Below, one piece after another: positions 43,300-56,780 of a stretch of DNA of 64,000 nucleotides; the stretch's first letter is position 1, and every line of letters begins with the position of its first letter. Under the pieces are notes generated by a model, which ran no database searches, was not told the DNA's origin, and saw only the letters and a list, made by a program, of their open reading frames with translations. The DNA lies in contig NZ_CP016447.1 in assembly GCF_001714725.1 (NCBI RefSeq), positions 620,001 to 684,000 on the forward strand. The letters run 5' to 3'. This DNA is from Acidovorax sp. RAC01 (lineage in GTDB: Bacteria; Pseudomonadota; Gammaproteobacteria; Burkholderiales; Burkholderiaceae_C). The translations under genes and the position numbers were made by a program.

Positions 43300-44562
43300 T
43301 CACTTCTTCTCAGGCTCATCCTTCTTCTTGTCATTGCCCTCGATGTACGGGCTCCATGGCTTGGCCTTCACGGGGCCAGGCGTCTTCCACACCACGTTGA
43401 ACTGTCCGTCGGCCTTGATCTCGCCGATGAACACGCTCTTGTGCAGGTGGTGGTTCTTCTCGTCCATCTTGCTCACAATGCCGCTAGGTGCCTTGAAGGT
43501 CTGGCCTGCCATGGCGGCAATCACCTTGTCCACATCGGTGCTCTTGGCCTTCTCCACGGCCTGCTTCCACATGTTGATCCCGATGTAGGTGGCTTCCATC
43601 GGGTCGTTGGTGAGCGGCTTGTCCTTGTGGCCGGCAATGCCCTTTGCCTTGGCGTAGTCGCTCCACTTCTTGATGAAGGCGGTGTTCTCGGGGTTCTTGA
43701 TGGACTGGAAGTAGTTCCAGGCGGCCAGGTGGCCCACCAGCGGCTTGGTGTCCACACCGCGCAGTTCTTCTTCACCCACGCTGAAGGCCACCACCGGCAC
43801 ATCCTTGGCCTTCAGGCCCGCGTTGCCCAGTTCCTTGTAGAACGGCACGTTGGAGTCACCGTTGATGGTGGACACCACGGCCGTCTTGCCGCCCTGGCTG
43901 AACTTCTTGATGTCGGCCACGATGGTCTGGTAGTCAGAATGGCCGAACGGTGTGTACTTCTCGTCGATGTCGCTGTCCTTCACGCCCTTGCTCTTCAGAT
44001 AGGCGCGCAGGATCTTGTTGGTGGTGCGGGGGTACACGTAGTCGGTGCCCAGCAGCACCCAGCGCTTGGCGCCGCCGCCGTCCTTGCTCATCAGGTAATC
44101 GACCGCAGGAATGGCCTGCTGGTTGGGCGTGGCGCCGGTGTAGAACACGTTCTTTGACAGTTCTTCGCCTTCGTACTGCACGGGGTAGAACAGCAGGCCG
44201 TTGAGTTCCTCGACCACGGGCAGCACCGACTTGCGGCTCACCGAGGTCCAGCAGCCGAAGATCACGGCGACCTTGTCCTGCGTGAGCAGCTGCTTGGTCT
44301 TTTCGGCAAACAGCGGCCAGTTGGAGGCCGGGTCCACGATCACGGGTTCGAGCTTCTTGCCCAGCACGCCGCCCTTGGCATTGATTTCGTCGATGGCCAT
44401 GAGCACCGTGTCTTTGAGCACGGTTTCAGAAATGGCCATGGTGCCCGACAGGCTGTGCAGGATGCCGACCTTGATCGTGTCCTGAGCATGGGCGGGCAGT
44501 GCAGACAGGCCAGCCAGGGCTGCGGCGGCCGCGAGGGCCTTGAGGGAATAACGACGTTGCAT
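43300..44562 (-). CDS. urtA: Urea ABC transporter substrate-binding protein UrtA
   Basis: 420 aa. Signal peptide (MQRRYSLKALAAAAALAGLS...AHA) then a type I periplasmic binding fold: TIKVGILHSLSGTMAISE, FGCWTSVSRKSVLPVVEE, LLFYPVQYEGEE, GTDYVYPRTTNKI, and a Lys-rich end. The LHSLSGTMAISE and YPVQYEG segments are hallmarks of UrtA rather than amino-acid binders. ATG 44562 follows GGAGAAG; a longer start 24 bases upstream lacks one. First gene of urtABCD(E). Confidence 0.95.
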   Translation of the reverse strand: MQRRYSLKALAAAAALAGLSALPAHAQDTIKVGILHSLSGTMAISETVLKDTVLMAIDEINAKGGVLGKKLEPVIVDPASNWPLFAEKTKQLLTQDKVAVIFGCWTSVSRKSVLPVVEELNGLLFYPVQYEGEELSKNVFYTGATPNQQAIPAVDYLMSKDGGGAKRWVLLGTDYVYPRTTNKILRAYLKSKGVKDSDIDEKYTPFGHSDYQTIVADIKKFSQGGKTAVVSTINGDSNVPFYKELGNAGLKAKDVPVVAFSVGEEELRGVDTKPLVGHLAAWNYFQSIKNPENTAFIKKWSDYAKAKGIAGHKDKPLTNDPMEATYIGINMWKQAVEKAKSTDVDKVIAAMAGQTFKAPSGIVSKMDEKNHHLHKSVFIGEIKADGQFNVVWKTPGPVKAKPWSPYIEGNDKKKDEPEKK

Positions 44563-44721
44563 GTGCTTCTCCAGTGGGGTGGTCAAACCGTTTCGCCTGC
44601 AGGCCCTGTGGGCCGTGGTCTCAGGCGATGGAATGAATTCTGGAGAGGGGCACGGTTTACGGAAATACGCCGGGTGGCGTACACGGGCGTGCGGCCCGGC
44701 CTGCCTGGGCAGGCGGCTGAC

Positions 44722-45915
44722 CTAGCCCGCCGGGCTGGCGGTGGTGACGGAGGCGGCGGGCGGGGTATCGGCCGGTCCCGGAGGCGCTGTGCAAATGCGC
44801 GGCAGCCGCATGCAGAACTCGGTGGCTTGCGCGGTGGATGTGACCTCCACCGTACCGCCGTGCGCGGTGGCGATCTCGCGCACCACGTAGAGGCCCAGGC
44901 CCAGGTTGGCACCGGCCACCTGCGAGCCCGATTCATCGTCCTCGCGCTCCTCACGCACCAGCGGGTCGAAAAGGCGCGGCAACAGATGCGGCGCAATGGG
45001 TTTGCCGGTGTTGCGCACGCCCAGTTGCACGTGGCTGGCCGTACCGTCGATCGCCACGACGATGGGCGAATCGGCAAAGCCGTATTTCAGTGCGTTGAAC
45101 ACCAGGTTGGACAGCGCCTGGTGAATGCGCCGCTGGTCCCACTCCACCGCCATGTCGCCGTGGCACTCCAGCTGCAGCGTGCGGCCCTTGGTGACGGTCT
45201 CGATCTCGTCGAGCGTCTCGCGCGCAAACTGGTCGAGCTGCATGTGGGTGGGCGAGAGGTTCAGGCCCTTGCCCAGGCGGTAGGTGGTGAACTCCATCAA
45301 GTCGTCGAGCAGGGCCTTCATCTGCCGCACGCTGCGCAGCACCAGGGGTGCAAACCGCACGTCGTCGGGCCATTTGCGCAGCTCCACGGCAGCGGCACTG
45401 GCAATCGAGCTCAGGGGCCCGCGCAGGTCGTGGCCCATCACGCCCAGGAACAAATCGCGCGCACGGTCCAGTTCGGCAATGAAAACCTCTACCGACTCGG
45501 CCAGTGCCTGGTCCACCGCTTCGTTGAAGCGCATCATGTCGTCCAGGTCATCCGGGCCCGCATCCCGGCTGGAATCGCGCCACAGCCGCAGCACTGTCGC
45601 GCGCAGGGCGCGGTACTCGGCCACCATCTGGCCCACCTCGAACCCCTGGCGCTCGCGCTGGCGCGCGTGGCTGCGTGAGGGCACCCGTGCGGACGTCGAG
45701 GCCAGCAGGCTGTTGCCTTCCGACTTGGCCTTGACCTCGCGCTCATCCTCCGTCACGCCCATGTTGCGCACGATCTCTTCGAGGATCTTGGTGCCATGGT
45801 CTTCCAGACCCATGGCGTCCAGGTTGCGCGCCGCAGGCAGCTGGTTGCGCGCGAAAGCCACCCAGGCGTGAAGGATCGACTCGTGGTGCGATGCGATGAA
45901 GGTGGCAAGTCTCAT
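44722..45915 (-). CDS. Histidine kinase with RsbRD-like N-terminal domain
   Basis: 397 aa, soluble. Residues ~5-150 resemble the RsbRD/RsbT co-antagonist N-terminal domain (IASHHESILHAWVAFAR, FEVGQMVAEYRALRATVLRLW). HisKA at ~170-230 (FLGVMGHDLRGPLSSIASA), HATPase at ~270-370 (HQALSNLVFNALKYG, NTGKPIAPHLLPRLFDP, GANLGLGLYVVREIATAHGG). ATG 45915 starts the conserved part. It lies 159 bp upstream of urtA on the same strand, but its link to urea uptake is unproven. Confidence 0.87.
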   Translation of the reverse strand: MRLATFIASHHESILHAWVAFARNQLPAARNLDAMGLEDHGTKILEEIVRNMGVTEDEREVKAKSEGNSLLASTSARVPSRSHARQRERQGFEVGQMVAEYRALRATVLRLWRDSSRDAGPDDLDDMMRFNEAVDQALAESVEVFIAELDRARDLFLGVMGHDLRGPLSSIASAAAVELRKWPDDVRFAPLVLRSVRQMKALLDDLMEFTTYRLGKGLNLSPTHMQLDQFARETLDEIETVTKGRTLQLECHGDMAVEWDQRRIHQALSNLVFNALKYGFADSPIVVAIDGTASHVQLGVRNTGKPIAPHLLPRLFDPLVREEREDDESGSQVAGANLGLGLYVVREIATAHGGTVEVTSTAQATEFCMRLPRICTAPPGPADTPPAASVTTASPAG

Positions 45916-46100
45916 CGCAGCATTGTGCACGGCAGCACAAGCCGCCTCTCCACGCCCCGATGCCCGGGGCCTCGACGGTTGACGGCCCACCGCAAAAACC
46001 CGGTGGCCGCGACCGGCGCCTTCGCCTATGCTCGGCACATCGCGAATTCTCGATTTTTTGACCTCTATTGCGCTTGCAGCCCTGCTGACGCCACCTCACC

Positions 46101-46790
46101 ATGAGCCCTACTGATACGCCCACCGCCTACGGCACCGAAGACCTGCTGATCAGCCTGTGCAACTCTGTCACCCGGGTGCTGAACGTGGCCACACACAGCC
46201 AGATCCATTACTCGGGCATGGTCCAGCGCATCAGCAAGACCTGCCTGAAGCCCGACATCGGCTGCTTTGTGCTGTTTGATGGCGGCTTTTCGGGCCTGGT
46301 CATCATCAACTTCTCGGCCCCGGCCGCGATGGAGCTGTATTCGAACTACCTGCTGAACATGGGCATGTCGCAAGACGACCTGGTGACCTCGTTCACGTCG
46401 GACGAGGTGAGCAACGTGATGGGCGAGCTGATGAACCAGGTGGTGGGCGACTTCACCGGCAAGGTGCGCCGCGAGCTGCAGACGCACATCACGCAGAACC
46501 AGCCCAAGATGCTGGTGCTGAACAAGCAGGTGATGCTGAGCGTGGACGCCAACCTGGACAAGCCCGAAGCACGGCGCGTGACCTTCTACACCAGCAACAA
46601 CAACATCTTCTACCTTGAGCTGGCCATCGACCGCACCGAGTTCATCAAGCTCTACGACTTTGATGCGCAGGAGACGCCGGACATCGACGCACTGATGGCC
46701 CAGTCGCAGGCGCCCGCGGCAGCGGCCGAGCCGGCACCGCAGGCTGGAGCGTCGGATACGGACGAGCTGCTCAAGTCCCTGGGCATGTGA
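46101..46790 (+). CDS. DUF3334-like / CheX-like protein
   Basis: 229 aa. One domain over ~1-190: SQIHYSGMVQRISKTCLKPDIGCF, then SFTSDEVSNVMGELMNQVVGD, which has the E-x2-N pattern of CheC/CheX phosphatases, and VLNKQVMLSVDAN. The length and sequence match the DUF3334 family as I remember it. A flexible Ala/Pro tail ends in DTDELLKSLGM. If it acts like CheX it would dephosphorylate a response regulator. ATG 46101; divergent from the RsbRD-type kinase by 185 bp. Confidence 0.75.
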   Translation: MSPTDTPTAYGTEDLLISLCNSVTRVLNVATHSQIHYSGMVQRISKTCLKPDIGCFVLFDGGFSGLVIINFSAPAAMELYSNYLLNMGMSQDDLVTSFTSDEVSNVMGELMNQVVGDFTGKVRRELQTHITQNQPKMLVLNKQVMLSVDANLDKPEARRVTFYTSNNNIFYLELAIDRTEFIKLYDFDAQETPDIDALMAQSQAPAAAAEPAPQAGASDTDELLKSLGM

Positions 46791-47056: not shown

Positions 47057-48115
47057 TCAGCCCTCAAACTGCGGATGCAGCTGCCGGATGCGGTTCATGG
47101 CCATGGCTGCGGCTGCCGTGCGCGTCTCCACACCCAGCTTGGCAAACACCCGCTCCAGGTGCTTCTTCACCGTGGCCGGGCTCGCGCCCAGGATGTCGCC
47201 GATGTCTCGGTTGATCTTGCCCTTGACCACCCAGTACAGCACCTCGGCCTCGCGCGCAGTCAGCTTGAACGACAGGCTCATGGATTCGATGATCTTCGCG
47301 TCCGACACCTCGCGCATCACGATCAGCCAGTCGCCACCGCCCGCGCTGTCGCCCGCCTGCTGGTGCAGGCGGAAGGTGAGGCGGCGCGCGCCCTGCTCCA
47401 CCGCCAGCCGCGGCGGCTCGGCCAGCGATGCGGCCAGCAGCTCGGCGGCGTTGTCGGCCAGCACATGGCGGCGCAGCCAGGCCTGCACGGGCTCGGGCGC
47501 CCATTGGCCGAAGGCGGTGGGCGCACCGTCGGGCCCTACCTCGCCAAAGTAGCTTTGCAGCAGTTCGCGCGCCAGCGGGGTCTGCCACACGATGCGGCCA
47601 TCGGACGCGCGCACGGTGATGCTGGCGTAGCCGAACGCATCCAGGGCGTTGCGTGCTTCCCGCGCCTGGCGGGCGTCTTGCCGCGCCTTGCGGGCGGCGC
47701 CCAGGTGCACGCCCATGCGGGCCATCACCTCGCGCGGCTTGATGGGTTTGGTCACGTAGTCGATGCCACCGGCCTCCAACGCGGCCACCAGGTGCTCCGT
47801 CTCCGTCAGCCCCGTCATGAAGATGATGGGAATGTGCGCGGTGGCGGGGTTGGCCTTCAGGCGCCGGGCGACTTCAAAGCCGTCCATGCCGGGCATCATG
47901 GCGTCGAGCAGCACGATGTCGGGCAGGGCCTGCGCAGCGCGCTGCAGCGCCGCCTAGCCATGCATGGCCACCAGCACGGTGTAGCCCGATTCGTCGAGCG
48001 CATCGTGCAGCACGGCCAGGTTGTCGGGCACGTCGTCCACGATCAGGACAACATCGCTGTCGGCGCGGTCAAGCATGTGGGAAGCCCCGGTGGCGGTTGC
48101 GGAAGGAACGTTCAT
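47057..48115 (-). pseudogene. Response regulator (REC - middle domain - LuxR HTH) interrupted by an in-frame TAG
   Basis: The frame from ATG 48115 reads a normal receiver start (DVVLIVDDVPDNLAVLHDAL, GYTVLVAMHG), hits TAG at 47956-47954 (codon 54), then continues in the same frame AALQRAAQALPDIVLLDAMMPG (phospho-Asp), KPIKPREVMARM and a LuxR HTH (LTAREAEVLYWVVKGKINRDIGDIL). Without the stop it would be 352 aa. The consensus at that place is usually G-E-A-A, so GAG to TAG is one substitution. The ATG overlaps the stop of the permease-kinase gene by four bases, so this is its cognate regulator. Nonsense mutation, sequencing error or amber readthrough are all possible; restart at 47914 would remove the acidic pocket. 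Confidence 0.85.
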
Positions 48116-51100
48116 GGCGTGGCGTGTTGCGCAAGGATCTGGCCCATGGCATCGAACTGGAACTGCCGGGCCAGGCCCCGCATGCGCTGCACAAAGGCCG
48201 CGTGTTCGGGGTGCTGGCGCTCGATGTCGGCCAGTGCATTGAGGATGCCCCGGTAGTAGCCCAGCGAGACCGACTGCGCCAGTTCGACCAGCGCTGCGGG
48301 CGGTGGGTATGCGGCTGGCTCTGCAGTCGTGGCGGCAGGCAGTGCTGCAGGCTGCATGGGCGCTGCCATAGCCGCTCCCGGTTGCGCAGCGGCCGCGGTG
48401 CCGTCGGTCCACACCAGGTCCAGCCGTTGCTCCAGCCAGTCCAGCAGCTCGCTGTGGCGCACGGGCTTGACGATGAAATCCTCGGGGCGGATGCCCACGT
48501 CGTTGTCCAGCGCCTTGTCAAACGCGTTGGCCGACACGATGGCCATGCGCGGCCCCGTGCCATCGGCTGCCGGGCCCCAGCCCTGCGCGTGGATACGGCG
48601 CAGGGTCTCCCACCCGTCGATGCCGGGCATGGCCAGGTCCATGAAGATGGCGTGCGGGCGGTAGCCGGTAGCCAGCAGGTCCAGCGCGTCATGCCCGCTG
48701 GCCGCCTGCCGCAGCTCAAAGCCCAGGGGCTCCAGCAGCTGCCGCAGCAGCTCGCGGTCGGGCTCTTCGTTGTCCACCACCAGGATGCGGCGGCGCTCGC
48801 CCGCGTAGCCCGTGCGCAGCCGCGGCGGCCGCGCCGAAGGTGCTGCGCTGGGCGGCAGCTTGCCCAGCGCATCGGCATGCACTTCCGGCAGGAACAGCTT
48901 GACGTGGAACACCGAGCCTGCGCCCGGCGTGCTGGTCACTGTCAGCTCGCCGCCCATCAGTGCCGTCAGCATGCGGGCAATGGTGAGCCCGAGCCCCGCC
49001 CCGGGCGCTCCCGTGTTGCTGCTGCCGCCCGCGCCCCCGCGCGTGAAGGGCTCGAAGATGCGCTCGATCTCGTCGGCCGTGAGGCCCGGCCCCGTGTCCT
49101 GCACGTCAATGCGCGCCATCTCGCGGGCGTAGCGCACGCGCAGCGTGACGGTGCCCTGCGCCGTGAACTTGATGGCGTTGCCCAGCAGGTTGATGAGGAT
49201 CTGTCGCAGGCGCTTGTCGTCGGCCCGCACGACCTCGGGGATCACGCCCTGCACGTCAAACTGGAAGGCCAGCCCCTTGGCCGCCGCCTGCAGCTCGAAC
49301 AGCGCCGCCATCTCGTGCAGCCCATCGGCAAAGCGCATGGGCGCCACATCCAGCGTGAGCTTGCCCGATTCGATGCGGGCGATGTCCAGCGTGCCCTCGA
49401 TGAGCGAGAGCAGGTGCTCGCCGCCGCGCTTGATCACGTGCACGGCCTGCTTGCGGTGCGGCGGCACGCCCGCGTCTTCGCCCATGAGCTGTGCGTAGCC
49501 CAGGATGGAATTGAGCGGCGTGCGGATCTCATGGCTGATGGCGCTGATGTAGCGGCTCTTGGCCTGGTTGGCCTGGTCGGCCGCGCGCTTGGCCTCCTCG
49601 GCCACCTGGCGCGCCTGCTCGGCCACGCTGCGGGCGGTCTGCAGGGCTTCGTCAGTCTGGCGGTGCAGTTCGATCTCTCGCATGAGCAGGCCGGTCTGGC
49701 GGTTGGATTCCTCTTGCGCCACCTGGCGGCTCTTGTGCGCCAGCACCAGCCACCACGCCACGATGCCCGAGATGACCAGCAGCGCCAGGTACGCCTTGAG
49801 CAGGCCCGAGCGCAAGGCCCCCTCCGGTGCGGCCAGCACTTCGGTGTCGGTCAGGGCATGCGCAATGGTGTTGAGCTCCTGGTGGTACAGCAGGCCCATC
49901 ACGGCGGCCAGCAGCGGCGCAATCACCAGCATCAGCAGCAGGAAGTGGCCTAGGCCCGTGTCCAGGTAGCGCCACACCGAGCGCGGCAGCACCCAGCGCA
50001 GCGCGGCAGACCACTGCACCGCCATGCTGGCGTGCGGCTTGCACAGGTCGCCGCAGCGCGCATCGAGCGTGCAGCACAGCGAGCAGATGGCGCCCCGGTA
50101 GGCGGGGCACTGGGCCATGTCGGGGCCCTCGTATTCGCGCTCGCAGATCACGCAGCGCTGCACGGCCAGCCGCTGGTAGCGGCCCACATCGGCCGGTACA
50201 TCGCCATGCGGTGCGCCACGGCCGCCCGGCACCGGCCCGTGCATGGGTACGGCCACTGGCTCGCTCTGCCGGGCGATGTAGTACTTGCCGCGCGTGGCCC
50301 AGGCAATGAGTGGCGCGGTGACAAACGCCACCGCCATGGCGATCACAGCCGAGAACGCCTGCGGCAGCGGGCCGAAAACGCCCAGGTGCGCGCTGATGGA
50401 CACCACCGACGCCAGCGCCATCGCGCCCACGCCTACGGGGTTGATGTCGTACAGGTGCGCGCGCTTGAACTCGATGCCCTTGGGCGACAGGCCCAGCGGC
50501 TTGTTGACCACCAGGTCGGCTACCACGGCCATCATCCAGGCGATGGCGATGTTGGAATACAGCCCCAGCACCTCACCCATGGCACGGAACACGTTCATCT
50601 CCATCAGCATGAACGCGATCAGGGTGTTGAACACCACCCACACCACGCGCCCCGGGTGGCTGTGCGTGAGGCGCGAGAAAAAGTTCGACCACGCCAGCGA
50701 GCCCGCATAGGCGTTGGTCACGTTGATCTTCATCTGCGAGATCACGACAAATAGCGCCGTGGCGGCCACGGCCCAGCCGTAGTCGGAAAACACGTAGCCA
50801 TAGGCCACCAGGTACATCTGGTTGGGGTCCACCGCCCGGTCGGCCGGCACCATCTGTGTGAGCGCCAGCCAGGCCAGCAGCACCCCGCCCAGCATCTTGA
50901 GCACGCCCAGCACCACCCAGCCGGGCCCGCCCACCAGCACCCCCAGCCACCAGCGCCCGCGCCTGCCTGGCGCTGGTGCAGGCATGAAGCGCAGGTAGTC
51001 GGCCTGCTCGCCCATCTGCGTGATCAGCGCAATGCCCACCGTGAGCGCCGCACCAAACAAGGGCAATTCAAACCCGGCGCCCCGCCCCGATTCACCACCG

Positions 51101-51807
51101 TAGTGCACCACGCCCGCAAACGCACCAGGATCGCGCGCCAGCACGTAACCGAACGGCACCACCAGCATCAGCAGCCACAGCGGCTGTGTCCACATCTGCA
51201 GCCGGCTGATGACCGACACCCCGTGCGTGACCAGCGGTATCACCACGATGGAGCAGATCAGGTAGCCCCAGGTGGGCGGGATGTCGAGCGCCAGCTCCAG
51301 CGCGTAGGCCATCACGGCCGCTTCGAGCGCAAAGAAGATGAAGGTGAACGACGCGTAGATCAGCGACGTGAGCGTGGAGCCGATGTAGCCAAAGCCCGCG
51401 CCACGGGTGAGCAGGTCCATGTCCACCCCGTAGCGCGCCGCATAGATGCTGATGGGCAGGCCCGCAATGAAGATGATGAGACCCGTGGCCACGATGGCCC
51501 AGAAGGCGTTGATGAAGCCGTACTGCCCCAGCAGCGTGGCGCCCACCGCTTCCAGGATCAGGAACGACGCCGCCCCGAACGCGGTATTGGCCACCCGCCA
51601 CTCGGACCACTTGCGAAAGCGCTGGGGCGTGTAGCGCAGCGCGTAGTCCTCCATGGTTTCGGTGGCCACCCAGCTGTTGTAGTCGCGCCGCACCTTCACC
51701 ACCTGCTGGGGCGGCTGGGCGGCGGGCTCCTGCCCCTGCGCGGCCGGCCATGTGGCAGCGGGCGGCGCGGCGGCGGGCGTGGGCAAGGCGGTGGGGTCGG
51801 GGGTCAT
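48112..51807 (-). CDS. NCS1-type permease - Cys-rich module - histidine kinase - receiver fusion
   Basis: 1231 aa. Residues ~40-515: NCS1/CodB-like purine/cytosine permease, ~12 membrane segments (RRDYNSWVATETMEDYALRY, FIAGLPISIYAARYGVDMDLLTRGAGFGYIGS, SQMKINVTNAYAGSLAWSNF). ~551-592: Cys-rich module (CVIC, CPAYRGAICSLCC, RCGDLC). Two further membrane helices ~620-645 and ~672-692, coiled coil ~700-750, HisKA (AISHEIRTPLNSILGYAQLM, H759), HATPase (LINLLGNAIKFT, GLGLTIARML), receiver ~1007-1125 (D1057 in FMDLAMPGIDGW) and a C-terminal helical domain. ATG 51807. Divergent from ureA by 174 bp. A transporter-like sensor, comparable in design to CbrA; ligand unknown. Confidence 0.9.
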   Translation of the reverse strand: MTPDPTALPTPAAAPPAATWPAAQGQEPAAQPPQQVVKVRRDYNSWVATETMEDYALRYTPQRFRKWSEWRVANTAFGAASFLILEAVGATLLGQYGFINAFWAIVATGLIIFIAGLPISIYAARYGVDMDLLTRGAGFGYIGSTLTSLIYASFTFIFFALEAAVMAYALELALDIPPTWGYLICSIVVIPLVTHGVSVISRLQMWTQPLWLLMLVVPFGYVLARDPGAFAGVVHYGGESGRGAGFELPLFGAALTVGIALITQMGEQADYLRFMPAPAPGRRGRWWLGVLVGGPGWVVLGVLKMLGGVLLAWLALTQMVPADRAVDPNQMYLVAYGYVFSDYGWAVAATALFVVISQMKINVTNAYAGSLAWSNFFSRLTHSHPGRVVWVVFNTLIAFMLMEMNVFRAMGEVLGLYSNIAIAWMMAVVADLVVNKPLGLSPKGIEFKRAHLYDINPVGVGAMALASVVSISAHLGVFGPLPQAFSAVIAMAVAFVTAPLIAWATRGKYYIARQSEPVAVPMHGPVPGGRGAPHGDVPADVGRYQRLAVQRCVICEREYEGPDMAQCPAYRGAICSLCCTLDARCGDLCKPHASMAVQWSAALRWVLPRSVWRYLDTGLGHFLLLMLVIAPLLAAVMGLLYHQELNTIAHALTDTEVLAAPEGALRSGLLKAYLALLVISGIVAWWLVLAHKSRQVAQEESNRQTGLLMREIELHRQTDEALQTARSVAEQARQVAEEAKRAADQANQAKSRYISAISHEIRTPLNSILGYAQLMGEDAGVPPHRKQAVHVIKRGGEHLLSLIEGTLDIARIESGKLTLDVAPMRFADGLHEMAALFELQAAAKGLAFQFDVQGVIPEVVRADDKRLRQILINLLGNAIKFTAQGTVTLRVRYAREMARIDVQDTGPGLTADEIERIFEPFTRGGAGGSSNTGAPGAGLGLTIARMLTALMGGELTVTSTPGAGSVFHVKLFLPEVHADALGKLPPSAAPSARPPRLRTGYAGERRRILVVDNEEPDRELLRQLLEPLGFELRQAASGHDALDLLATGYRPHAIFMDLAMPGIDGWETLRRIHAQGWGPAADGTGPRMAIVSANAFDKALDNDVGIRPEDFIVKPVRHSELLDWLEQRLDLVWTDGTAAAAQPGAAMAAPMQPAALPAATTAEPAAYPPPAALVELAQSVSLGYYRGILNALADIERQHPEHAAFVQRMRGLARQFQFDAMGQILAQHATP

Positions 51808-51885
51808 GGGCGGGCGGGCAAGCCCTGTTCCGTGCAGATTCCATGCCACCGGCAAGGCCTGTGTGCGCCATGTGGCGTATGGCCG

Positions 51886-51981: not shown

Positions 51982-52284
51982 ATGGAACTGACCCCCCGTG
52001 AAAAGGACAAGCTGCTGATCTTCACAGCGGCTCTGCTGGCCGAGCGGCGCAAGGCGCGGGGCCTGAAGCTCAACTACCCCGAAGCCGTGGCCCTGATCAG
52101 CGCCGCCGTGATGGAGGGCGCGCGCGACGGCAAGACCGTGGCGCAGCTCATGAGCGAGGGGCGTACCGTGCTCACCCGGGCCGATGTGATGGACGGCATC
52201 GCCGAGATGATTCCGGACATCCAGATCGAAGCCACGTTCCCCGACGGCACCAAGCTCGTCACCGTGCACCAGCCCATCGTCTGA
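51982..52284 (+). CDS. ureA: Urease gamma subunit
   Basis: 100 aa, the standard length. [38 protein letters not shown], and [31 protein letters not shown] are diagnostic. It forms the urease trimer-of-trimers with UreB and UreC in the cytoplasm. First gene of the structural operon; ATG 51982. A 62-aa His-rich gene, not ureB, follows 24 bp later. Confidence 0.97.
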
Positions 52285-52308: not shown

Positions 52309-52497
52309 ATGCTGCGCATCACCTCCACCCGCATCCGATCCACCCTGGCCGCCGGCGCGCTGTGCCTGAGCACGGCCGCCGCCTTTGCCCACGAGGGCCA
52401 CGCCCAGCACGGCAGCCACTGGCACGCCACCGACCTGTGGGGCTTTGTGGTGGTGGGCGTGCTGCTGGTCGCAGCCGCATGGCGCGGCCGCAAGTGA
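52309..52497 (+). CDS. His-rich membrane miniprotein inside the urease operon
   Basis: 62 aa. A signal-like N-terminus ([17 protein letters not shown]) is followed by a histidine-dense stretch [15 protein letters not shown] (six His in 15 residues), then one hydrophobic helix ([16 protein letters not shown]) and a basic end RGRK. It is placed 24 bp after ureA and 22 bp before ureB, in the same direction, so it is very likely co-transcribed. The His cluster would face the periplasm and could bind nickel or another metal (inference). No known family recognised. Confidence 0.75.
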
Positions 52498-52519
52498 TGA
52501 CACCGCTCGGAGGCACCCC

Positions 52520-52825
52520 ATGATTCCAGGCGAACTGATCACCGAACCCGGCGAGCACCCGCTCAATACCGGCCGGCGCACGCTGACGCTGGTGGTGCGC
52601 AACACGGGCGACCGCCCCATCCAGGTGGGCTCGCACTACCACTTTGCCGAAACCAACAACGCCCTGGGTTTTGACCGCACGGCCGCGCGCGGCATGCGGC
52701 TGAACATTGCATCGGGCACGGCGGTGCGGTTCGAGCCCGGCCAGGAGCGCACGGTGGAGCTGGTGGACTACGCCGGCGAGCGCCAGGTGTACGGCTTTCG
52801 CGGCCTCGTTCACGGCGCACTGTAG
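52520..52825 (+). CDS. ureB: Urease beta subunit
   Basis: 101 aa. [38 protein letters not shown] and [19 protein letters not shown] are conserved UreB segments; length normal. CGGAGG precedes ATG 52520. A 92-bp gap with an AT-rich repeat precedes ureC. Confidence 0.97.
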
Positions 52826-52917: not shown

Positions 52918-54636
<1,719 letters not shown>

Positions 54637-54637
54637 C

Positions 54638-55147
54638 ATGGCCTCCACCGCGAGCCCTCTGCTTGCCAGCCTGTCCATCCGCCTGGACGACCTGCGCGAC
54701 CAGCGCATTGCCGCCTTCATGGAAGAGCACCTGCAGGACATGCGGGCCACCTCGCCGCCCGAGAGCGTGCATGCGCTGAACATGGACCAGCTGCGCCGCC
54801 CCGAGATCCGCTTCTGGACGGCCTGGCTACCCGACGACGCAGCGCCAGCCCCCGGCCAGCTGGTAGGCACCGGCGCCCTCAAGGACCTGGGCGCGGAGCA
54901 TGCTGAACTCAAATCCATGCGCAGCGCCGGGGCTGTGCGCGGCCACGGCGTGGGCCGCGCGATCCTGGAACATATCCTGGGCCAGGCCGTGGACCTGGGC
55001 TACCAGCGCATCAGTCTGGAAACCGGCACCCAGCCCTTCTTCGAGCCCGCATGGCAGCTGTACCTGCGCTACGGTTTCGCGGACTGCGCACCGTTCGGCT
55101 CCTACCAGCCCGACCCGAACAGCCGCTACATGATGCGCCTTCTGTAG
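54638..55147 (+). CDS. GNAT-family N-acetyltransferase in the urease operon
   Basis: 169 aa. GNAT fold: LVGTGALKDLG (beta4), ELKSMRSAGAVRGHGVGRAILEHIL (acetyl-CoA loop with RGHGVG), ISLETGTQPFFEPAWQLYLRYGFADCAPFGSY. It begins one base after the ureC stop, so it is translationally linked to ureC. GNATs are not needed for urease maturation; substrate unknown. From memory, a GNAT in this position recurs in related bacteria, which may mean a real role such as protein or polyamine acetylation. Confidence 0.88.
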   Translation: MASTASPLLASLSIRLDDLRDQRIAAFMEEHLQDMRATSPPESVHALNMDQLRRPEIRFWTAWLPDDAAPAPGQLVGTGALKDLGAEHAELKSMRSAGAVRGHGVGRAILEHILGQAVDLGYQRISLETGTQPFFEPAWQLYLRYGFADCAPFGSYQPDPNSRYMMRLL

Positions 55148-55210
55148 GGTCAGGGCATCCACGCCACAATGCCCGCCTCGCCTTCAAGGCTCTGCAACAC
55201 GCTCTTCACC

Positions 55211-55906
55211 ATGATCCAGGTTTCCAAACTCCTCCCCCAGGGCCAGGGCCTCGCCCCTGTGCTGCTCAAGCGCGCCACCACGGTCGAACTGGACTGGGAC
55301 GTGCGCCAGAAAAGCCGATTTGCCGCCACCGACTCCGCCGGGCGCGAGCTGGGCATCTTCCTGCCCCGCGGCACGCTGGTGCGCGGCGGCGACGTGCTGG
55401 TGGCCGAGGACGGCTCCATGGTCCGCGTGGTCGCCGCGCCCCAGCCGGTGCTGGTCATCACCCACTGCCAGAACCACGGCACGCCGTTTGACCTGACCCG
55501 CGCTGCCTACCACCTGGGCAACCGGCACGTCCCCATCGAACTGCAGCCCGACCACCTCAAGATCGAGCCCGACCATGTGCTGGCCGACATGCTGCGTGCC
55601 ATGCACCTGATCGTGAAAGAGCAAAACCTGGCGTTCGAGCCCGAAGGCGGCGCGTATGCACCCGGGCATGGCGGCGGGCACCACCACGCGGGGCATGGTC
55701 ACGGGCACGACCATGACCATGCGCACGATCACGATCACGATCACGGCCACAGCCATGCATCCCCCGCACACGACCACGCCGACGGGCACGCCCATGGCGA
55801 TGCCCCCGCTGCCGCCACGCCCCCGGCCCGTGGCCGCACCGTGTCCATCCCGGTGGTCGCCAACACGGGGCATGTGCACGGCCCGCACTGCAACCACGAC
55901 CACTGA
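55211..55906 (+). CDS. ureE: Urease accessory nickel metallochaperone UreE
   Basis: 231 aa. Core UreE domains ~1-150: [78 protein letters not shown]. The remaining ~80 residues are an unusually long His/Asp/Gly-rich tail (about thirty His, for example [20 protein letters not shown]), with another cluster at the very end ([11 protein letters not shown]). The tail should store or capture nickel. ATG 55211 chosen; 14 codons further upstream lack UreE sequence. Confidence 0.96.
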
Positions 55907-55939
55907 GCGCCGCGCCCGATGCTCCAATGCGTCTTTACC

Positions 55940-56006
55940 GTTCAGGCTGAGCTTGTCGAAGCCAGGGCGCCCACCCCATCCGTTCGGGCTGAGCCGGTCG
56001 AAGCCG
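55940..56006 (+). repeat. Two GTTCGGGCTGAGC repeats between ureE and ureF
   Basis: GTTCAGGCTGAGCTTGTCGA (55940) and GTTCGGGCTGAGCCGGTCGA (55982), the third location of this repeat in the window. They enlarge the ureE-ureF gap to 163 bp within an otherwise tight operon. Confidence 0.8.
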
Positions 56007-56069
56007 GGGCACGCACAGTGGCCGCCCCAGCCGACCGCTCACAGCGACGCGCCTGACGAGACATTCCCC

Positions 56070-56780
56070 GTGCGCACCGACCGCCCCGCCCCCCTCCCCG
56101 CAGCCAGCCTGCTCCAGCTCATCTGGCTCGCATCCCCCGCGCTGCCCGTGGGGGGGTTTTCGTATTCCGAGGGGCTGGAAAGCGCCATTGAAAACGCCGG
56201 TGTCGCCAGCGAATCCGCCGTGGCCGACTGGCTGCTCGACCAGTTGCACCTCGCACAGTCGCGTGGCGACATGGCGCTCATCGCCAAAGCGGTGGGCGCC
56301 TGGCGCCGCACTGACTGGGCGCATGTGCGTGAGCTCAACGACTGGGTGCTGCACACCCGCGAGACCAGTGAGCTGCGTTTGCAAAGCGAGCAAATGGGCC
56401 GGTCGATGGCCGACTGGCTGCGCAACCAGCACCAGGGCGATCCAACGCACATGCCTGCGGTGCAGCACCTGGCCGCCCTGCCCCCCACCTACCCGGTGGC
56501 GTTTGCACTGGCCGCCTCCATCACGCAGGCCTCGGTGCGCGATGTGCTGCTGGCCTACGCCTTCGGCTGGGCCGAGAACATGGTGCAGGCCGCCCTCAAG
56601 TCCATGCAACTGGGCCAGAGCGCAGGCCAGCGCATCCTGGCCAGGCTGGCAGACGCCATACCCGCCGCCGCCGACCACGCCATCAGCCTGATGGACAGCG
56701 AGCGCCAGGCCTTTTCGCCCATGCTGGCCATCCTGAGTGCCCAGCATGAAGTGCAGTATTCAAGACTTTTCCGCTCCTAG
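56070..56780 (+). CDS. ureF: Urease accessory protein UreF
   Basis: 236 aa from a [46 protein letters not shown], and [24 protein letters not shown] identify UreF, which acts with UreD and UreG in nickel insertion. No ATG lies near the conserved start, and the long upstream frame runs through the repeats and the ureE tail, so GTG 56070 is the best start. Stop is 50 bp before ureG. Confidence 0.9.

Follow-up and report, generated by a model that had tools for sequence, protein, structure and literature searches.

According to the available text of one report (PMC7096432), the CbrA/CbrB system, which is linked to carbon/nitrogen balance, consists of an SLC5-STAC-PAS kinase and a response regulator. 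Ks-Amt5 is presented in the accessible part of a second report (PMC5764959) as an ammonium sensor kinase whose regulator is reported as unknown, and the available sections of a third (PMC12918730) describe GrtK/GrtR of Burkholderia glumae as a two-component system for external ammonia. Our literature search, with most subscription papers and preprints outside its reach, returned no NCS1-kinase and no urea-sensing kinase of this sort that we recognised among the matches listed. In soil and in animal hosts, urea ranks among the main nitrogen sources; to our knowledge, few bacterial urea receptors have been described. Here we analyse a stretch of 64,000 nucleotides from the genome of Acidovorax sp. 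RAC01 (contig NZ_CP016447.1, positions 620,001 to 684,000; the window), which encodes a transporter-fold kinase that probably serves as membrane receptor and kinase in a two-component system responding to urea and short-chain amides.

Architecture and distribution of the kinase

HisKA, HATPase_c and Response_reg domains, together with the phospho-accepting His and phospho-accepting Asp residues, lie in a single chain that is thus a hybrid histidine kinase (Table 1). In the predicted model, the hairpin continues as a long helix that reaches the kinase part. The linker between residues 516 and 745 gave one sub-threshold Pfam family and nothing more, and the full kinase has no Pfam match to PAS. 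The original prediction, that a permease-type domain, a Cys-rich module, a histidine kinase and a receiver share one chain, is confirmed by the domain matches and the model. It had also raised a misassembly, or absence of the fusion from close relatives, as grounds for doubt; the fusion in fact recurs in relatives, both in the same genus and at 57 places in a sample of Pseudomonadota. An artefact is ruled out by the orthologues at 83% identity or more in 32 of 35 genomes of the same genus, three of the 32 having them only in pieces.

Table 1. Positions of the kinase, its domains, neighbouring genes and regulatory elements in the window
Feature	Position	Strand	Basis
Transporter-fold hybrid sensor histidine kinase, 1231 aa including the stop codon	48112..51807	-	
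NCS1/LeuT-fold domain, residues 34-513	50269..51708	-	model and fold match; profile match
Cys-rich module, residues 552-589, eight Cys, possible two-zinc finger	50041..50154	-	Cys conservation; weak non-significant fold matches
Two-helix hairpin, residues about 619-690, putative membrane placement	49738..49953	-	model secondary structure
HisKA, residues 749-815, phospho-accepting His759	49363..49563	-	domain match and motif position
HATPase_c, residues 863-973	48889..49221	-	domain match
Receiver domain, residues 1008-1124, Asp1057	48436..48786	-	domain match and motif position
LuxR-type response regulator gene, overlapping the kinase stop (ATGA)	47057..48115	-	
urtA, urea ABC transporter binding protein	43300..44586	-	
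ureA, urease gamma subunit	51982..52284	+	domain match
Frame with ureB, urease beta subunit	52385..52825	+	
ureC, urease alpha subunit	52918..54636	+	domain match
ureE	55169..55906	+	
Frame with ureF	55656..56780	+	
Perfect operator-like palindrome upstream of urtA	44666..44681	.	
Operator-like repeat between kinase and ureA, a perfect palindrome but for one half-site base	51864..51879	-	
Sigma-54-type -24/-12 element in front of the kinase gene	51833..51848	-	

Relatives of the kinase are numerous, with at least 8000 database matches (8000 of the 8000 candidates scored); their names include 'hybrid sensor histidine kinase', 'ATP-binding protein' and 'signal transduction histidine kinase/purine-cytosine permease-like protein', the last at JGI. 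The Pseudomonadota sample of 398 genomes, the window's own included, had matches in 58 genomes. The 57 fused kinases are found in 52 of these, two of them (G091 and G150) with an in-frame TAG within the matched part, and the other matches are a fragment or stand-alone permeases with 24-31% identity. Among 72,556 plasmid records 535 match, 503 of them with 80% or more of the query covered; Klebsiella accounts for 342 of the 535 and Sinorhizobium for 78. On one Klebsiella plasmid (L136, 9977-13357), the kinase, urtABCDE and a formamidase gene lie a few kilobases from the heat-shock genes clpK and hsp20. A related kinase is also present in two records of 330-380 kb named 'Acinetobacter phage' (H101, CAKLQF020000001.1, and H102, CAKLQH020000001.1), which may be bacterial DNA.

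In a tree of 161 rows, built by a quick search, with long branches and an unsure deep order, the window kinase falls inside a clade of 89 rows (SH-aLRT 100); 61 of these are ure-linked, 12 are linked at a distance, and 16 have no link or a short flank. None of the 61 urt/fmd-linked rows falls inside this clade, and the ure label changes 10 times on the tree, versus a shuffled mean of 50.

Gene neighbourhood

The minus strand of the window carries the kinase, the regulator, a second kinase gene and urtA. Between the regulator and urtA there are the second kinase gene, with an RsbRD_N domain (44722-46038, minus strand), and a DUF3334/CheX-like gene (46101-46790, plus strand); a GNAT acetyltransferase gene (54638-55147, plus strand) sits between ureC and ureE inside the urease cluster.

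Urea/amide genes occur within about 10 kb of the kinase in 53 of 53 loci of the phylum sample, 58 of 69 of the named set and 11 of 11 same-order paralogue loci, counts of sequences related by descent and not of independent events. A neighbour was scored by script as urease, UrtA, formamidase, amidase or AmiS/UreI, with identity cut-offs of 40-60% to reference proteins and an upstream flank of at least 3 kb. The phylum set is drawn from 55 of the 57 fused places (excluding the window and G042, which is the same as L042 and is counted among the paralogues), of which two with less than 3 kb upstream were dropped; the named set is the best 80 of 563 relative-encoding loci, less 11 dropped for the same reason. 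Nine of the genomes behind the 11 named-set exceptions carry urtA, one at only 45% identity, and in four of the nine it lies about 12-27 kb off on the same contig; the other two genomes, both MAGs, have no urtA at the threshold used.

In annotated plasmid records the kinase is divergent from urtABCDE and a formamidase gene in Paraburkholderia, Burkholderia, Azospirillum and Klebsiella plasmids, from urtABCDE in Shinella and Thioclava plasmids (with the Thioclava formamidase gene after the regulator), from a formamidase gene in Methylovirgula and Paracoccus plasmids (in Paracoccus with an AmiS/UreI gene), and from ureA in a Mitsuaria plasmid. Relatives of the kinase in many proteobacteria appear to control genes for the uptake and breakdown of urea and small amides.

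The NCS1-type domain and its ligand

The closest solved fold to the N-terminal domain of the model is that of an NCS1 transporter, and all 12 helices of the NCS1 fold are present. Alignment with hhalign against members of PF02133 gave a probability of 94.2 and an E of 1.1e-7 over 332 columns, the profile similarity being bridged via a relative, L227. Because the Pfam family PF02133 itself does not match the domain at E<=10, we class it from its sequence as a remote NCS1-type domain and not a PF02133 member; the search against Transp_cyt_pur and solved structures suggested beforehand thus bears out the NCS1 relationship in fold and profile but not at the Pfam cut-off.

The permease core is strongly conserved across the kinases, polar residues included. 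Position 86, four residues beyond the TM1 break of the model, is Glu in 122 of 122 ure- and urt-type kinases, as against Phe in three stand-alone permeases; E162 is kept in 121 of the 122, and E162, N362 and N365 are common to the stand-alone permeases too. Nine positions are near-fixed but different between the ure and urt types of kinase, four of them (88, 90, 265 and 269) in the TM1 and TM6 helices, near E86 and E267 in sequence; we infer that the differences there reflect a re-tuned site. Cytosine, uracil, hydantoin and allantoin, all known substrates of NCS1 proteins, contain an N-C(=O)-N group like that of urea, itself the smallest such compound; it is thus chemically plausible that a receptor for urea could be built on this fold.

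We prefer urea and short-chain amides over a nucleobase as the ligand because the usual neighbours are genes for urea and amide uptake and hydrolysis. The original prediction of a transporter-fold sensor for a nitrogen compound, in conserved synteny with urea-related genes and tied to nitrogen scavenging, has thus held up, whereas the nucleobase or ureide that it put forward as the ligand is now less likely, given the neighbours urtABCDE, formamidase, aliphatic amidase and urease.

It is therefore unlikely that the domain detects a nucleobase or ureide outside the cell (uracil, cytosine, hydantoin or allantoin) and that the urea genes respond to urea as the breakdown product. The solved NCS1 members do carry cytosine and hydantoin, and F158 and N365 align with the aromatic residue and the Asn of what we take, from its residue numbers, to be the Mhp1 substrate site, where both appear kept; a gap in the alignment keeps the TM6 residues from being mapped safely onto Mhp1. 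In addition, a Paracoccus stretch has genes for an LLM-class oxidoreductase and a nitroreductase, with putative roles, some kilobases off. The synteny nevertheless lowers the odds of a nucleobase receptor, since urea/amide neighbours recur over widely different taxa and the kinase loci include formamidase and amidase loci without urease. E86 in TM1 and other near-cavity residues also differ from those of stand-alone permeases and speak against such a receptor. No purine, pyrimidine or allantoin breakdown genes were found by name in nine annotated stretches, names being weak evidence.

It is also improbable that the domain is a transceptor, which would still transport urea or an amide and signal flux rather than mere binding. 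The well kept core and the complete set of helices would suit such a role. K360 and I361 align with the Ser and Thr of what is presumably the Mhp1 sodium site, which might argue against transport, but this does not decide the matter because stand-alone relatives have Lys or Arg there as well. The precedents point both ways: CbrA transports histidine according to the available text (PMC7096432), while Ks-Amt5 is described in the accessible part of its report as having lost transport (PMC5764959).

The Cys-rich module

The eight Cys residues (552, 555, 567, 575, 578, 579, 585 and 589) are invariant in 157 of 157 kinases and may bind zinc. Many of the top fold matches of the module are two-zinc fingers of the FYVE, RING or PHD type, none of them significant, and the model is confident in the core of the module only; no PHROGs family matched it. 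When the module by itself was searched against the 398 genomes, 57 strong matches came up (E<=2e-10, weaker ones beginning at E 7e-5), all in frames of at least 894 aa, which coincide with the same 57 fused kinase loci; the module has no other strong match in this sample. Arthrobacter stand-alone permeases keep the first Cys alone, inside a related C-terminal stretch. One of them (L137, 9935-11611), 43% identical to the window domain, retains the beginning of the module in Cys-poor form and is divergent from biotin-synthesis-type genes (radical SAM/BATS and class III aminotransferase).

The invariance of the eight Cys, and the fact that urease requires nickel, could suggest that the module is the true sensor, responding to a metal or to redox conditions, with the permease domain serving only as a scaffold. 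We consider this very unlikely: the permease core is itself strongly conserved, as described above, and many members stand beside transporters and amidases, not urease.

An operator-like repeat upstream of urtA

Dyad counts in the gaps between urtA and the kinase gave TACG-N8-CGTA in 43 of 50 gaps, and the pattern was refined to TACG-N8-CG(T/C)A. In the genome of 4.57 Mb there are three mismatch-free matches, of which two are those upstream of urtA and in the kinase-ureA gap; the third is at G000:C1:1244595-1244610. When one mismatch is allowed the pattern is not enriched genome-wide (43/41 matches versus 87/96 for the reversed control), and only close matches therefore count. A broader pattern was rejected as too loose, with 34 matches versus 25.7 expected.

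Upstream of urtA, the operator was found in 80 of 87 regions of kinase-bearing genomes, counted as urtA regions and not as genomes, some of which have two (30/31 in the named set, 4/4 in the same genus, 38/43 in the phylum loci, and 8/9 where the kinase has no urtA within about 10 kb). It was found in 0 of 29 such regions from 28 kinase-less genomes, obtained from 70 genomes that we picked as having no fused match (30 loci, one without a usable urtA start); these controls include a genome of the same family with a 91% identical UrtA. The identity floor was 50% for the kinase-bearing regions and 40%, with one more query, for the controls. The co-occurrence of operator and kinase gives a Fisher p of 4.6e-21, uncorrected for kinship.

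Of 54 ure-type gaps just 8 have the strict operator (shuffle mean 0.2, all shuffles being first-order Markov), as do 10 of 20 in the same genus, and for this reason control of urease would be less certain than control of the transporter; the urea transporter operon is the likely most conserved regulatory target that we found, ahead of urease. That the protein is an ordinary orphan kinase, beside urea genes for historical reasons and controlling another target, is hardly credible: it would suit the 11 of 69 named loci without urea/amide neighbours within reach, but the operator accompanies the kinase even where urtA is unlinked.

Promoter element and partner regulator

TGGC(A/C)-N7-TGC(A/T), whose spacing we take to be that of the sigma-54 promoter consensus, is present in the orientation of the kinase gene in 34 of the 54 ure-type gaps (shuffle mean 0.45) and in 20 of 20 same-genus stretches, and in the ureA sense in 10 of the 54 (shuffle mean 0.5); in urt-type gaps it was found in 1 of 45. 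A sigma-54 pattern with wrong spacing gave 0 matches; rpoN is present in the genome. An NtrC-type pattern, GCAC-N5..9-GTGC, was seen in 9 of 54 ure-type gaps versus a shuffle mean of 3.0 and maximum of 9, and is not claimed.

Where the downstream flank is at least 5.2 kb, a regulator frame follows the kinase on the same strand in 52 of 53 phylum, 72 of 74 named and 11 of 11 paralogue loci. The named loci without a regulator inside 5.5 kb are L094 and L117, the latter with potassium-transporter-like frames lying after the kinase and before a regulator-like frame. The regulator gene of the window has an in-frame TAG at residue 54 (47954-47956, minus strand), and Response_reg and GerE match the part after it. 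Because none of 20 same-genus stretches has a stop between the two parts, and the post-stop part in one of the same genus (L248) is 100% identical to that of the window, the TAG either arose recently or is an error, and there are intact copies. If the stop is neither a sequencing error nor suppressed, it would cut signalling in Acidovorax sp. RAC01.

A model for urea and amide sensing

We thus suggest that, under nitrogen shortage, sigma-54 would make the sensor, and that urea, in the ure clade, or urea or a short-chain amide, in the urt/fmd clade, would bind in the transporter-type cavity. The ligand-driven movement might then pass through the Cys module and the hairpin to the kinase, and the phosphorylated regulator would bind TACG-N8-CGTA and activate urtABCDE, together with urease in part of the lineage. 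The receptor, regulator, operator and target set are concrete and directly testable. We further propose, tentatively and with less confidence than for the receptor itself, that these proteins may form an undescribed and widespread class of urea/amide receptors in which a nucleobase-transporter fold would serve as the sensing domain of a hybrid kinase, coupled through a FYVE-like two-zinc module, with sigma-54 control in the ure branch, a single operator for urea transport throughout Proteobacteria and carriage on many Klebsiella plasmids. If true, thousands of proteins that now often go by the name 'ATP-binding protein' would gain a suggested function.

Comparison with known systems

CodB and Mhp1 share the fold of the N-terminal domain, at about 15-17% identity, but are stand-alone transporters without a kinase. 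GrtK/GrtR is likewise a two-component system for an external nitrogen compound; as far as the available text describes it, it has a PilS-like membrane domain, a Fis-type regulator and no transporter fold. Closer is Ks-Amt5, in which a nitrogen-compound transporter fold is also reused as the sensing domain of a kinase; unlike the kinase described here, it is built on the Amt fold, without a Cys module or a receiver in the accessible account. CbrA/CbrB, as presented in its available text, has the same combination of a LeuT-type transporter domain fused to a histidine kinase and a partner regulator, and CbrA was rightly named as a precedent for the design, though not for the transporter family (SLC5 versus NCS1). 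The present kinase lacks the SLC5 domain of the CbrA-type SLC5-STAC kinases; unlike CbrA, with its SLC5, STAC and PAS domains, it has an NCS1 domain, an eight-Cys module and a receiver, and no PAS by Pfam. Fusions of SLC5 (CbrA) and Amt (Ks-Amt5) to kinases are thus known, whereas an NCS1 version tied to urea was not found within the literature that our search reached; if our reading is true, NCS1 would join these two on the short list of transporter folds turned sensor kinases.
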